Shown here: positions 38,943 through 46,918 of the stretch, piece after piece
Numbering within the stretch: position 1 is the first letter of the stretch
Layout: the number at the start of each line of letters is the position of its first letter
Assembly: GCA_958296385.1 (NCBI GenBank)
Contig: OY282494.1
Span: 157,416 to 221,415 of the forward strand
Direction: 5' to 3'
Length of the DNA: 64,000 bases
Source: an uncultured Dehalococcoidia bacterium
GTDB taxonomy: Bacteria > Chloroflexota > Dehalococcoidia > Lucifugimonadales > UBA3495
Made by a program: the position numbers and the translations under genes
Notes under the pieces: generated by a model
What the model was told of the DNA's origin: nothing
What the model saw: the letters and a program-made list of their open reading frames with translations, nothing else
Database searches by the model: none

Positions 38943-40421
38943 ATGCCGGACTTTGCGAATGCAGCGACCGTTTGGCGGGCCGTTTTGGGCGGGTTGCAGA
39001 TGGAGATGCCCCGGGAGCATTTTGACACGTTCCTGGAGCCCTGCGTGGGGCAGGGGTGGGACGATGGCGACCTGGTGGTGGGGGCGGCCAGTTCTTTTGC
39101 GGTTTCGTGGCTGGAACTGCCGCTGCATCTGGCGATGGCGCAGGGTGTTTTAGCGCGGACGCTGGGGCGGGAGGCCAGGGTGATTTACCGGGCGATGCCG
39201 GCGGCGGCCGCGGCGCATCGGCCGGCAGCGGAAACGGGGGCAGCGGTTGCGGCGATAACCGCCGCACCGGAACGGGGCGTCCGCGCGCCGGCGCCGGAGG
39301 GGTATGACCTGGGCAGCGGGGGCGGGGGGGCCGCCGGCGGGTACGACTGGCGGGCGGTCAACGCGGCAACCTGCAACGGCGGGTACACTTTTGACAATTT
39401 TGTGGTGGGGCAGAGTAATCAGCTGGCGTTTCACGCCGCCGTTGCGGTGGCAGAGTCGGATGCGGCAACGGCCGTCGCTCCAACGGGGGCCGTGGGTTAC
39501 AACCCGCTGCTGATTCACGCCGGGCCGGGGCTGGGCAAGACGCATCTGCTGCACGCCATCGGGAACCGGGCCCGGGAGCGGGGGCGGGCGGCGCTGTACG
39601 TTACATCGGAGCAATTCACTAACGAGTTTGTGTCGTCAATCAATGGGCGCACGATGCGGCAGTTCCGGGAGCGTTACCGGAATCTGGACGTGCTGCTGCT
39701 GGACGACGTGCAGTTTCTGGTGGGCAAGGAGCAGACGCAGGAGAGTTTGTTTCATACGTTCAACGACTTGCATCAGGCCGGGGCGCAGATTGTGCTGACC
39801 AGCGACCGGGCGCCGCAGTCAATCCATCCGCTGGAGGATCGTTTGCGGTCACGGTTCCAGTGCGGGTTGCTGGCGGACATACAGCCGCCAGCGCTGGAGA
39901 CGCGCATCGCAATACTGCACGCCTGGGCGGCCGCGCGGAATGGGGTTGGAGTGGGCAAGGCCGGTCTGGATGAAATCCTGGAGCTGATTGCACAGCGGGT
40001 TAGCGGCAACGTGCGGGCGTTGCAGGGGGCGTTTAATCGGGTGATGGCGATGGCGCAGCTGATGAATATGCCGCTGACGGCGGAGCAGGTTGCGCAACAG
40101 CTGGACGCCATCGCCGGGCCGGAAAGGCGGCGCAGCCTGACGGCAGAGCAGGTTTTGGAGCAGGTGGCAGCGCACTACGGAATCAGCGGGGAACGGATAC
40201 TGGGCCGGGGGCGCACGGCGGAGATGGCAGAGGCGCGGCAGGTGGTGATGTATCTGCTCACTGCGGAGCTGGGCATCACGCCGACTAACGCGGGGCGGTT
40301 TCTGAACGGGCGCAACCACAGCACGGTCATTCACGGTTCGGGTAGAATAAGGGGCGCCATTGCCAGCGACGACCGCATTGGACGGGCGGTCAACAGCATC
40401 AGGGATGCGCTTTACGATTGA
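38943..40421 (+). CDS. dnaA: chromosomal replication initiator protein DnaA
   Basis: A 492-aa AAA+ initiator. Domain I (VWRAVLGGLQMEMPREHFDTFLEP) is followed by a Gly/Ala-rich domain II linker. Domain III has YTFDNFVVGQSNQLA, Walker A HAGPGLGKTHLL (~192), Walker B LLLDDVQFL (~250), and the arginine-finger region DRLRSRFQCGL. Domain IV carries the DNA-binding motif AEARQVVMYLLTAEL...NGRNHSTVIHG. The linker is longer than average. dnaN is not downstream; an NHL protein is, so the usual dnaA-dnaN order is broken. Confidence 0.96.
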   Translation: MPDFANAATVWRAVLGGLQMEMPREHFDTFLEPCVGQGWDDGDLVVGAASSFAVSWLELPLHLAMAQGVLARTLGREARVIYRAMPAAAAAHRPAAETGAAVAAITAAPERGVRAPAPEGYDLGSGGGGAAGGYDWRAVNAATCNGGYTFDNFVVGQSNQLAFHAAVAVAESDAATAVAPTGAVGYNPLLIHAGPGLGKTHLLHAIGNRARERGRAALYVTSEQFTNEFVSSINGRTMRQFRERYRNLDVLLLDDVQFLVGKEQTQESLFHTFNDLHQAGAQIVLTSDRAPQSIHPLEDRLRSRFQCGLLADIQPPALETRIAILHAWAAARNGVGVGKAGLDEILELIAQRVSGNVRALQGAFNRVMAMAQLMNMPLTAEQVAQQLDAIAGPERRRSLTAEQVLEQVAAHYGISGERILGRGRTAEMAEARQVVMYLLTAELGITPTNAGRFLNGRNHSTVIHGSGRIRGAIASDDRIGRAVNSIRDALYD

Positions 40422-43602: not shown

Positions 43603-45846
43603 ATGGCTGCTATTGATGCGTACACGCCTGATGCTTGCCGGCTGGCGGCGGCGCTGCCGGTGATTTATGCCGGCCATCCGGCGGGGGATGGGCTGGATGC
43701 GGCGCGTCGTATTGCGGCGACGGCGGGGGAGTTGCTGGCGGCGGTGCCGGGTGATGGGGTTGAGCCGTCGGTGGTTAATGCGGCGGGGTTGTTTTTGCTG
43801 GCCGGGCCTGCGGATGGGGTCGGGCGGGCTGATTTGTCGAGGGCCATTGCGGGGGCCTGGCTGTTGGGGGTGGGGGCGCCGGGTGGGTTTGTGACTGCGG
43901 TGTCATCCGCTATTGCTGATGCCTGGCGGGAGTTGGAGGGTGTCGGGGTGGCTGCGGATACGGCGCTGGGGCAGGCGGCTTTGCTGGATTTGGCTTGTTG
44001 GGAACGGCACGCTGCCGTTTTGGGGTGTGCGCCGGCTGTGGGACGGGAGCGGGAGCAGTATCTGTCGCGATACCGGCGGCGAGTTTTGATACCGGCGCTG
44101 CTGCTGGAGGGGCGGCTGGCGTCAGCGGCGGCGGCTTGGGAGATGTATCGCGCGCGGATGGGGCGGCTGGCCGGGTATTTGGACGGTCTGGATGGCGGAT
44201 TGGTGTCGGCGGATTGGCGGCGGCTGGCGGAGGTGGAGGTTGTGGAGCGGGGGGTGGAGCGGCTGCTGGCGGGGGAGGACCCGGCGCTGGTTAAATCGGA
44301 GATGCCGGTTCCGGGGTTGCCTTATGCGGAGTACCGGGGGCAGCAGCGGGGGGTTATTGCGGGCAGCCATGACCGGATTCTGGAGCTGACGCACGACCGT
44401 ATTGAGGCATCGCGGAACGTGGCGGCGGAGAAGTATTTGGAGAGCGATACTATCCACAAGCCGGCGGTGGAGGAGAATTTGTTTGTCAGCGCGCGGCGGC
44501 GGGCGCGGCGGCTGGGGTTATCTGCGGAAACTGCGGAGGACATTGCGCGGCTGCTGCTGTCTAACGCGCGGGCGGTGCAGGAACGGACGCTGAACGACAT
44601 TGCGCAGCGGCTCAGCCGTTTGCACGGGCAGATTTTGGATGCGGACTCGCCGGAAACCCGGACGGAGGAGGCGGATATGGCGATTCCGTCGCTGGTGGTG
44701 CGGACGGGGGACCAGCCGCTGGCGCGGGAGAACGAGCTCATCAAGGAACTGCGGGTCACCGGGCTGAACGAGGCGTATCCGGAGCAGCGGCGGCAGTTTG
44801 TGAACTGGTTTGACGCGCCGCATCCGTATATGGAGACGGGGCAGCTGGTGGGGAGCCGGGATGCCGACCTTTTTTTGCAGGCGCTGACGGACGGGCAGCG
44901 GTGCAAGGTGATGGCGGCGATGTCAACGGACGGGCCGATGCACCTGGGCAACGGGGCGCTGGTCAATCTGCTGCGCTATTTTCAAGGGCTGGGGGCGGAA
45001 ATCGTTATCGGTTTTCGCGACGAATCGGACGACCGGAACCGGGCCCGCAAGGTGATGCTGGAGCGTCTGCTGACGATGGCGGCGGCCGGCCTTGACTTGC
45101 ATAAGACCGACGCTTACTTGCAGCCGGACCGTTCGGCAATCGTGGAGACGGCGTTTGCGCTGGGGCAGGCGATACCGCTGAGCGTGCTCAATTCGGCGCT
45201 GGGGCTGCGGCTGAACAGCAGCGTTACCAATACGTTCCGGCCGCTGCTGCGGCTGGCGGATATTCTGCATCAGCAGCAGGCCGAATACGGGGGGCCGGGG
45301 CGGACTCTGGTTATCGACGGGATTGGGGGGGACGTGTACGTGCGGATGGCGCGCAATGTGGCGGAGGGGTTTGGATTCGTTAAGCCGTCGGCGCTCTATT
45401 TGCGGATGGTGCGGAGTTTGACGACCTACGAGGACCCGGGCACGGGCAGCGCGGTGGAGGTGATGACTAACGCCGTGCCGCAAGGGCGGGTTGCTTACGA
45501 CGATGGGCCGGAGGAAATTCGCCGGCGCATCGGGCGGGCGTACACCGGGGGGCGGCGGACGCTGGCGGAGCAGAGGGCGCAGGGGGGGAATCCGGATCCG
45601 AGGGTCTGCGCGGTGGCCAGTTTGCACGCTTTTTACGCTACGCCGGACGCCGAGCGGTATGCTGACTTGCAGGGGCGCTGCCGCTCCGGGGGGCTGCTGT
45701 GCGGGGATTGCAAGGCGATGGCTACCGACGGCCTGCTAGAATATCTGGCGGGGTATCGCCAGGCGCGGGGCAATCTGCCGGACGACGTGCTGCGGCGGGC
45801 CCGGGCTCTGGCCGGATGCAGTGGGTCGGAGGAGCAATCGGAATGA
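43603..45846 (+). CDS. AroQ chorismate-mutase domain fused to an archaeal-type TrpRS-like domain
   Basis: A 747-aa protein. Residues 1-240 are an unrecognised alpha-helical region. Residues ~249-330 fit an AroQ chorismate mutase: R249, R266, K277, E290 and Q326 fall at exactly the spacing of R11, R28, K39, E52 and Q88 in E. coli PheA; R51 is Val and D48 is Lys. Residues ~400-720 follow archaeal-type tryptophanyl-tRNA synthetase: TGQLVGSRDADLFLQAL, RLADILHQQQAEYGG, YTGGRRTLAEQRAQGG, GRCRSGGLLCGDCK. HIGH reads HLGN (447-450) and KMSSS reads VMTNA (620-624). ATG 43603 follows repeat DNA. Canonical trpS is 55 bp downstream. A Trp-sensing mutase is my inference. Confidence 0.75.
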   Translation: MAAIDAYTPDACRLAAALPVIYAGHPAGDGLDAARRIAATAGELLAAVPGDGVEPSVVNAAGLFLLAGPADGVGRADLSRAIAGAWLLGVGAPGGFVTAVSSAIADAWRELEGVGVAADTALGQAALLDLACWERHAAVLGCAPAVGREREQYLSRYRRRVLIPALLLEGRLASAAAAWEMYRARMGRLAGYLDGLDGGLVSADWRRLAEVEVVERGVERLLAGEDPALVKSEMPVPGLPYAEYRGQQRGVIAGSHDRILELTHDRIEASRNVAAEKYLESDTIHKPAVEENLFVSARRRARRLGLSAETAEDIARLLLSNARAVQERTLNDIAQRLSRLHGQILDADSPETRTEEADMAIPSLVVRTGDQPLARENELIKELRVTGLNEAYPEQRRQFVNWFDAPHPYMETGQLVGSRDADLFLQALTDGQRCKVMAAMSTDGPMHLGNGALVNLLRYFQGLGAEIVIGFRDESDDRNRARKVMLERLLTMAAAGLDLHKTDAYLQPDRSAIVETAFALGQAIPLSVLNSALGLRLNSSVTNTFRPLLRLADILHQQQAEYGGPGRTLVIDGIGGDVYVRMARNVAEGFGFVKPSALYLRMVRSLTTYEDPGTGSAVEVMTNAVPQGRVAYDDGPEEIRRRIGRAYTGGRRTLAEQRAQGGNPDPRVCAVASLHAFYATPDAERYADLQGRCRSGGLLCGDCKAMATDGLLEYLAGYRQARGNLPDDVLRRARALAGCSGSEEQSE

Positions 45847-45901
45847 CGGGACGGAAATCTGAAATCAAGACGGAATCGGAATTAAGCAGGAGAATTACAT
45901 A

Positions 45902-46918
45902 ATGCCCGACCAGCAACGTATCCTTACCGGGATGCGCCCAACCGGACAGCTTCACGTGGGCCATTATCTTGGCGCATTGGAGAACTGGATTCAGTTGCAG
46001 CACGAGTACGAGTGCTTTTTTCTCATCGCCGACTACCAGGCGATGGGCGACCATCTGGACGACATCGGATTGATTCGGCGTTCGGTGCTGGAGGTGGCTA
46101 CGGACTGGCTGGCGGTGGGGCTGGACCCGGAGCGGGCGTCGTTTGTGATACAGAGCTACGTGCCGGAACACGCCGAGTTGACGATGTACTTTAGTATGCT
46201 GACGCCGCTGAATCAGCATCAGAGGAATCCGACACTGCGGGCCGAAATTGGGCAGCTGGAGGCGGAAAACCAGTCGGTAACGCTGGGGTTTTTCAACTAT
46301 CCGCTCAGCCAAGTTGCGGATATTCTGCTGCCAAAGGCGCATCTGGTGCCGGTGGGGGAGGATCAAGTGGCACATATTGAGTACACCAGGGACATTGCAC
46401 GCCGGTTTAACCGAATCTACGGCGACGTGTTTCCGATGCCAAGGGCCAGGGTGGGGCGGGTGCCGCGGCTGGTGGGTACGGACGGGCGGGCCAAAATGAG
46501 CAAAAGTCTCAACAATGCGGTGTATCTGGCCGACGATGCGGACACGGTGAAGCAGCGGGTGCGGCGGATGGTTACGGACAGCACCGGGGAGAATCCGCGC
46601 TTGCGGCCTACCGATCCGGGGGTGGTGGAGTACAATCCGGCGTTTCTGTATCACGATGCGTTTAACGACAATGCAGGCGAGGTTGCCGAATTGAAAGAAC
46701 GGTACACCGCCGGGCGGGTTAGCGACGTGGAGGTGAAAGACCGTCTGGCGGAGGCGCTGAACCGCTTTCTGGAGCCAATCCGGGAAAGGCGGGCGTGGTA
46801 CGAACAGCATCCGGACTACGTGCGGGAGGCGCTGATTGCCGGCACGGAACGGGAACGGGTCATCGCGCGTCAGACTATTGAGGACGTGCGGCAGGCGATG
46901 CAGGTGGTGTACGCCTGA
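45902..46918 (+). CDS. trpS: tryptophanyl-tRNA synthetase
   Basis: A 338-aa class I synthetase that charges tRNA-Trp. The HIGH motif is in RPTGQLHVGHYLGALENW and the KMSKS motif is intact in GRAKMSKSLNN. The tRNA and amino-acid pocket motifs (PVGEDQVAHIEYTRDIARRFN) are normal for the bacterial enzyme. AGCAGGAG precedes ATG 45902. It follows the AroQ/TrpRS-like gene by 55 bp on the same strand, so the organism carries a working bacterial enzyme beside a degenerate archaeal-type homologue. Confidence 0.96.
   Translation: MPDQQRILTGMRPTGQLHVGHYLGALENWIQLQHEYECFFLIADYQAMGDHLDDIGLIRRSVLEVATDWLAVGLDPERASFVIQSYVPEHAELTMYFSMLTPLNQHQRNPTLRAEIGQLEAENQSVTLGFFNYPLSQVADILLPKAHLVPVGEDQVAHIEYTRDIARRFNRIYGDVFPMPRARVGRVPRLVGTDGRAKMSKSLNNAVYLADDADTVKQRVRRMVTDSTGENPRLRPTDPGVVEYNPAFLYHDAFNDNAGEVAELKERYTAGRVSDVEVKDRLAEALNRFLEPIRERRAWYEQHPDYVREALIAGTERERVIARQTIEDVRQAMQVVYA

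Follow-up and report, generated by a model that had tools for sequence, protein, structure and literature searches.

A probable sole chorismate mutase fused to a degenerate tryptophanyl-tRNA synthetase beside trpS in a genus of uncultured Dehalococcoidia

Chorismate mutase commits chorismate to phenylalanine and tyrosine, and the 64,000 nucleotides of Dehalococcoidia DNA analysed here (the window) carry a gene in which such a domain shares one polypeptide with a relative of tryptophanyl-tRNA synthetase (TrpRS), next to trpS. Is this gene real, are its two halves active, and what could a synthetase fold contribute to a chorismate mutase? An initial annotation, made from the letters of the sequence, had recognised both halves and proposed that the second binds tryptophan and controls the first. 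The reading frame stands exactly as it was described there, and the gene, its domains and its downstream neighbour are the following.

43603..45846, + strand: coding sequence of 747 aa, HD-like domain, AroQ chorismate mutase and TrpRS-like pseudo-synthetase (domain matches, 14/14 genus genomes)
43603..44211, + strand: N-terminal ~203 aa, probable degenerate HD domain (profile comparisons)
44347..44583, + strand: AroQ-type chorismate mutase domain, residues 249-327 (Pfam, profile alignment, motif counts)
44593..44787, + strand: nearly invariant connector from the chorismate mutase to the TrpRS-like Rossmann fold, residues 331-395 (conservation, alignment)
44797..45789, + strand: TrpRS-like domain, residues 399-729 (NCBIfam, PDB, model comparison)
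45847..45901, + strand: gap of 55 nt between the fusion gene and trpS (coordinates)
45902..46918, + strand: canonical bacterial trpS with intact KMSKS (TIGR00233, 292 bits against a cut-off of 176.75)

A fusion of this kind might stem from a misassembled contig, a worry voiced at the outset, or be a pseudogene in decay. Nothing was found in favour of either explanation and both are extremely improbable: the gene is intact in 14/14 genomes of the genus (the own genome and 13/13 others, with 66-73% identity) and in two from a different class, and it is under strong purifying selection. Three of the 14 genus genomes that bear the fusion consist of a single contig, and the start codon at 43603 is backed by the relatives. 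The fusion was found in none of the 26 other genera tested from the same family and order, nor in any of 392 other genomes sampled from the class. A sample of the phylum brought up two genomes of another class, from genus g389 (L076 and L077), with a protein of 549 aa that is ~52% identical and lacks the N-terminal 200 residues. The search for homologues and their neighbours proposed with the first reading has in this manner yielded 16 fusion proteins, 14 from the genus and two from g389, which form the family set for all motif counts given below, and trpS lies next door in 16/16. When 84,980 species genomes were scanned, only one archaeal TrpRS and two genus members were matched; the patterns used in that scan lay mostly in variable parts of the protein, and a wider occurrence of the fusion is possible. 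The fusion was absent from the viral, phage and plasmid collections, where haloarchaeal plasmids yielded ordinary TrpRS only.

The assignment of the central domain to the AroQ mutases draws on several comparisons. Residues 252-327 score 30 bits with Pfam CM_2 (E 6.2e-7), above its cut-off of 27, which the two g389 proteins exceed as well, with 36.3 and 35.4 bits. An hhalign comparison of the family profile with that of E. coli PheA/TyrA AroQ gives an ungapped alignment of 76 columns (89.8%, E 1.8e-6), against 0.3% and 1% for two mismatched controls. By pairing R249, R266, K277, K286, V289 and E290 with R11, R28, K39, D48, R51 and E52, this alignment bears out the active-site match first proposed for R249, R266, K277 and E290. 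It ends before Q88, and the further claim that Q326 is the counterpart of that residue agrees with the equivalent spacing of Q326 and its position inside the Pfam match. The equivalents of R11, R28, K39, E52 and Q88 are invariant in 16/16 proteins. A profile of this region searched against the PDB placed a chorismate mutase at the top rank with a weak score (E 0.075), owing to the near invariance of the family. In the predicted structure, the mutase part is modelled with low pLDDT as helices at 256-280, 286-303 and 308-346; searches with the structure model were dominated by TrpRS/TyrRS matches and are uninformative on the mutase and HD-like parts.

Two positions of the active site differ from AroQ throughout the family, the D48 equivalent K286 being Lys and the R51 equivalent V289 being Val in 16/16. 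The lysine is not alarming, since D48 makes its contact through the backbone and since arginine is the second commonest residue at this position, which is Asp in 57% of AroQ enzymes (PMC12329711). R51V would then be, judging from the sequence, the sole serious departure from the AroQ active site, and its presence in every member suggests that activity may be low or require activation. The valine also led us to consider isochorismate pyruvate lyase; position 52 is usually Glu in mutases and it is there that the lyase PchB has its Val55 (PMC12329711), and this candidate was rejected because the E52 equivalent is kept here. Exported chorismate mutase fusions that possess just half of the customary active-site residues remain active (PMC10520331).

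The distribution of chorismate mutases bears directly on whether the domain is used. AroH occurred in every other genus tested from the order (26/26), all devoid of the fusion, and in 0/14 genomes of the genus, the own genome included, while CM_2 was found in 0/26 and 14/14, respectively, a mutual exclusion that counts as one event on the tree and not as 40 independent ones. A separate aroQ, which the initial annotation had suggested looking for, does not occur in the own genome, where CM_2 is confined to the fusion gene and AroH is absent as well; a second CM_2 match (14 bits, L022) falls in a HemW-like reading frame and was discarded as chance. The same genome encodes prephenate dehydratase (PDT) and, next to aroA, prephenate dehydrogenase (PDH), and must therefore produce prephenate. 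The fusion is thus probably the sole chorismate mutase of the genus. The early concern that R51V and D48K could signify a loss of activity is weakened by this, by the backbone role of D48 and by the retention of E52, and it stays serious for R51V.

AroH is missing from the second class altogether (0/31 genomes tested, whether they carry the fusion or not), and the replacement argument therefore does not extend there. In the 20 AroH loci inspected from other genera of the order (L042-L061), aroH lies beside trpA in 20/20, with a DAHP synthase gene nearby in 10/20. Because aroH adjoins trpA in these relatives, the ancestor probably had its mutase within the trp gene cluster, and the genus would have shifted the function to the gene beside trpS. 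It would offer a clean case of a genus that exchanged a trp-cluster AroH for a fusion beside trpS.

The conservation of the gene is far from uniform. Differences at fourfold sites amount to ~0.5 along the entire fusion gene. Amino-acid differences are 0.05-0.09 over residues 241-395 (0.055 in the connector, residues 331-395), rise to 0.14-0.44 across most of the remaining protein and reach 0.58 in the C-terminal tail. The block of low divergence comprises the chorismate mutase domain and the connector that joins it to the TrpRS-like fold; in the alignment, this connector overlaps with the N-terminal part of archaeal TrpRS. Such a frozen block fits a coupling of the two halves and is not proof of it. 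An overlapping gene or RNA was rejected as its cause, since fourfold sites vary there as elsewhere and, for an RNA, since Rfam gives only two tRNAs nearby. The very high conservation of residues 241-395 would also suit a mutase-like domain that has given up catalysis, binds chorismate or prephenate and makes the whole protein a regulator, for instance of TrpS. R51V in every member agrees with that explanation, and mainly regulatory domains of this type are described in some DAHP synthases (PMC5526877). We nevertheless judge it unlikely: it would leave the genus with no recognisable chorismate mutase even though PDT and PDH are encoded in the own genome, and the residues that correspond to E52 and Q88 never vary, a trait shared with active mutases.

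The C-terminal half was attributed from the start to archaeal-type TrpRS, and this attribution is upheld by three comparisons; the tail CRSGGLLCGDCK is present as reported. The NCBIfam archaeal TrpRS model covers residues 399-723 (E 2.4e-51; 174.8 bits, below the equivalog cut-off of 451), PDB 3a04 is matched with E 8e-32, and the structure prediction that had been called for (residues 226-726, pTM 0.65) superposes on A. pernix TrpRS 3a04 with Z 34.8 over 332 residues at an rmsd of 2.8. As modelled, this half has the class Ic TrpRS fold. The motifs by which such an enzyme is recognised are the following.

44941..44952, + strand: degenerate HIGH motif, HLGN (motif counts)
45319..45333, + strand: degenerate AIDQD motif, GIGGD (alignment with canonical archaeal TrpRS, motif counts)
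45460..45474, + strand: degenerate KMSKS motif, VMTNA (motif counts)
45607..45711, + strand: C-x23-C-x6-C-x2-C, candidate [4Fe-4S] motif of the TrpRS anticodon-binding domain (motif counts)

The degeneration of KMSKS noticed in the window holds for the whole family: its lysine is Val in 16/16 members, and homologues with an intact KMSKS were not encountered among them. The degenerate HIGH is present as described, but HLGN is peculiar to the own genome. The first His is kept in 16/16 and the second position is His in 11 (HLGH type), Gln in two, and Asn (the window), Tyr and Arg in one each. AIDQ is lost in 16/16, where GIGG or GLE(H/R) stands in its place and the DQ pair has become GG or EH/ER, and the substrate-pocket Gln (that of PLVQVADIL in canonical archaeal TrpRS) is Arg or Tyr. 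The loss of the KMSKS lysine, of AIDQ and of the pocket Gln makes amino-acid activation very unlikely and canonical tryptophan binding doubtful; the synthetase half is very probably inactive. In the C-x23-C-x6-C-x2-C motif, each of the four cysteines is retained in 16/16. In T. maritima TrpRS the same motif, C-x(22-23)-C-x6-C-x2-C in the anticodon-binding domain, holds a [4Fe-4S] cluster beside the anticodon (PMC2954223); unlike the fusion, which has no KMSKS, that enzyme possesses HIGH and KMSKS and charges tRNA. With this motif of the anticodon domain intact, the tRNA-facing part is the one most visibly retained.

These substitutions also touch the central proposal of the initial annotation, since binding of tryptophan by the TrpRS-like half is not established in a family that has lost the KMSKS lysine and AIDQ in 16/16 and exchanged the pocket Gln. 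A sensor of free tryptophan, in which the amino acid would occupy the old TrpRS pocket and activate or inhibit the mutase, could still draw on the fold retained in the model and on the position of aroH next to trpA in relatives, which makes a link to tryptophan ancestral. Chorismate mutases controlled by tryptophan occur in yeast and plants. With the pocket Gln turned into Arg or Tyr and the DQ pair into GG or EH/ER in all members, canonical binding is doubtful, and we regard such a sensor as unlikely.

The canonical trpS reported 55 bp downstream was verified as such, for the gene passes TIGR00233 and starts 55 nt after the fusion. No terminator-like site was detected in the 55-nt gap (45847..45901), and trpS is the downstream neighbour of the fusion in 16/16 genomes. 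The trpS of the window is 72% identical to that of g389, in another class, as against 39-44% to the six TrpRS genes available from its family and order. On this difference, the fusion and trpS were probably transferred horizontally between classes as a pair, and a joint transfer argues for a functional link. The trpS of the genus is likely a horizontal replacement of an essential synthetase. In 7/14 genus genomes (L005, L008, L010-L014), a conserved small open reading frame of ~55 aa (MKEFFLNHICTTPPYTVASCEYQY..., with a hydrophobic stretch) lies between the fusion and trpS; it is missing in the window.

The neighbourhood also speaks to another use of the TrpRS-like half. Cyclodipeptide synthases have a TyrRS/TrpRS-like structure and use aminoacyl-tRNA without charging it (PMC9437257), and the retained cysteines of the tRNA domain would agree with an enzyme that consumes Trp-tRNA in this manner, the fusion then making a specialised metabolite. 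We hold this very unlikely, given that the fusion is surrounded by trpS and housekeeping genes with no biosynthetic cluster, and that it is the only chorismate mutase found in the genus.

The best reading of these data, and a reasonably probable one, is that the sole chorismate mutase of the genus is governed by a dead TrpRS-like half in a role comparable to that of HisZ. The AroQ domain would convert chorismate to prephenate, and the C-terminal half, a TrpRS paralogue presumably devoid of amino-acid activation, would act as a regulatory and dimerising module. The signal could be the state of the tryptophan-charging system, perceived through tRNA(Trp) or through contact with TrpRS, or alternatively an aromatic amino acid or a chorismate-derived ligand, and it would travel through the nearly frozen connector to the mutase active site. 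The outcome would be to set the share of chorismate that leaves the tryptophan branch for phenylalanine and tyrosine. We prefer the charging signal because the anticodon cysteine motif has survived, the canonical substrate-binding residues have not and trpS is a constant neighbour; going by these sequence features, tRNA(Trp) or contact with TrpRS is equally plausible to slightly favoured relative to free tryptophan. A more specific version can be put forward only tentatively, in which the TrpRS-like half either dimerises with TrpS or uses its iron-sulfur anticodon domain to bind tRNA(Trp), and chorismate partition follows the charging of tRNA(Trp) instead of the free amino acid.

Several known systems resemble parts of this arrangement. 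In HisZ-HisG, an activation-less synthetase paralogue controls a committed enzyme of amino-acid biosynthesis (PMC9437257), but HisZ is a separate subunit derived from class II HisRS and serves histidine synthesis, whereas the fusion has a class I TrpRS fold in one chain with a chorismate mutase; the likeness is one of role only, in so far as the fusion is regulated as we infer. In M. tuberculosis, a weak AroQ mutase is boosted by a partner protein, being activated >100-fold in complex with DAHP synthase (PMC4281200), although the two are separate proteins and the activator is no synthetase but an enzyme of the shikimate pathway. AroQ is also joined to regulatory or pathway partners in CM-PDT-ACT PheA, CM-TyrA, CM-DAHPS and exported CM-cyclohexadienyl dehydratase; the passages searched on these fusions (PMC1173090, PMC5526877, PMC10520331) name no tRNA-synthetase partner, and the present fusion differs further by Val at R51. 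A 2022 review of synthetase duplications contains no TrpRS-like protein with such a non-charging role and fusion (PMC9437257). The opinion offered at the outset that no such system had been described agrees with the openly licensed literature naming both partners, whose titles and abstracts contain no fusion of chorismate mutase with TrpRS. The component parts are of known kinds and their combination appears new. If our reading is true, this would be, within the literature searched, the first TrpRS paralogue with a non-charging role fused to an enzyme of aromatic biosynthesis, uniting in one chain a HisZ-type dead synthetase and a partner-controlled AroQ mutase, and it suggests a so far undescribed coupling of aromatic amino-acid supply to the use of tryptophan in translation.

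On another aspect, the N-terminal domain, like the [4Fe-4S] cysteine motif, the loss of AroH and the joint transfer with trpS, had escaped the initial annotation. It is confined to this genus and absent from the shorter g389 proteins. Pfam has no match to it in the protein of the window, and what it reports for other members are isolated hits at chance level. A profile of the domain retrieved only the HD hydrolases 2pq7 and 3dto from the PDB (E 0.017 and 0.04), resembled the YedJ family weakly (hhalign 77%, E 2e-5), and HDIG was matched by 7/14 members. Unlike YedJ-type HD hydrolases, the fusion has no metal-binding HD pair: the Asp of the HD motif is gone, with LFHLAG-type sequences in place of LLHD, and the H...HD...D metal-binding set is incomplete. 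We conclude with moderate confidence that these ~200 aa form a degenerate (pseudo-)HD domain added in this genus.

The region upstream of the fusion varies. It holds gyrA and an alpha/beta hydrolase gene in one relative (G009, L071 4273-7796), to which most relatives are alike by the sizes of their open reading frames, and two tRNA genes (Ala, Arg) with a short-chain dehydrogenase instead in the window, where a dnaA-like gene is found at 38943-40421, ~3 kb upstream of the fusion.
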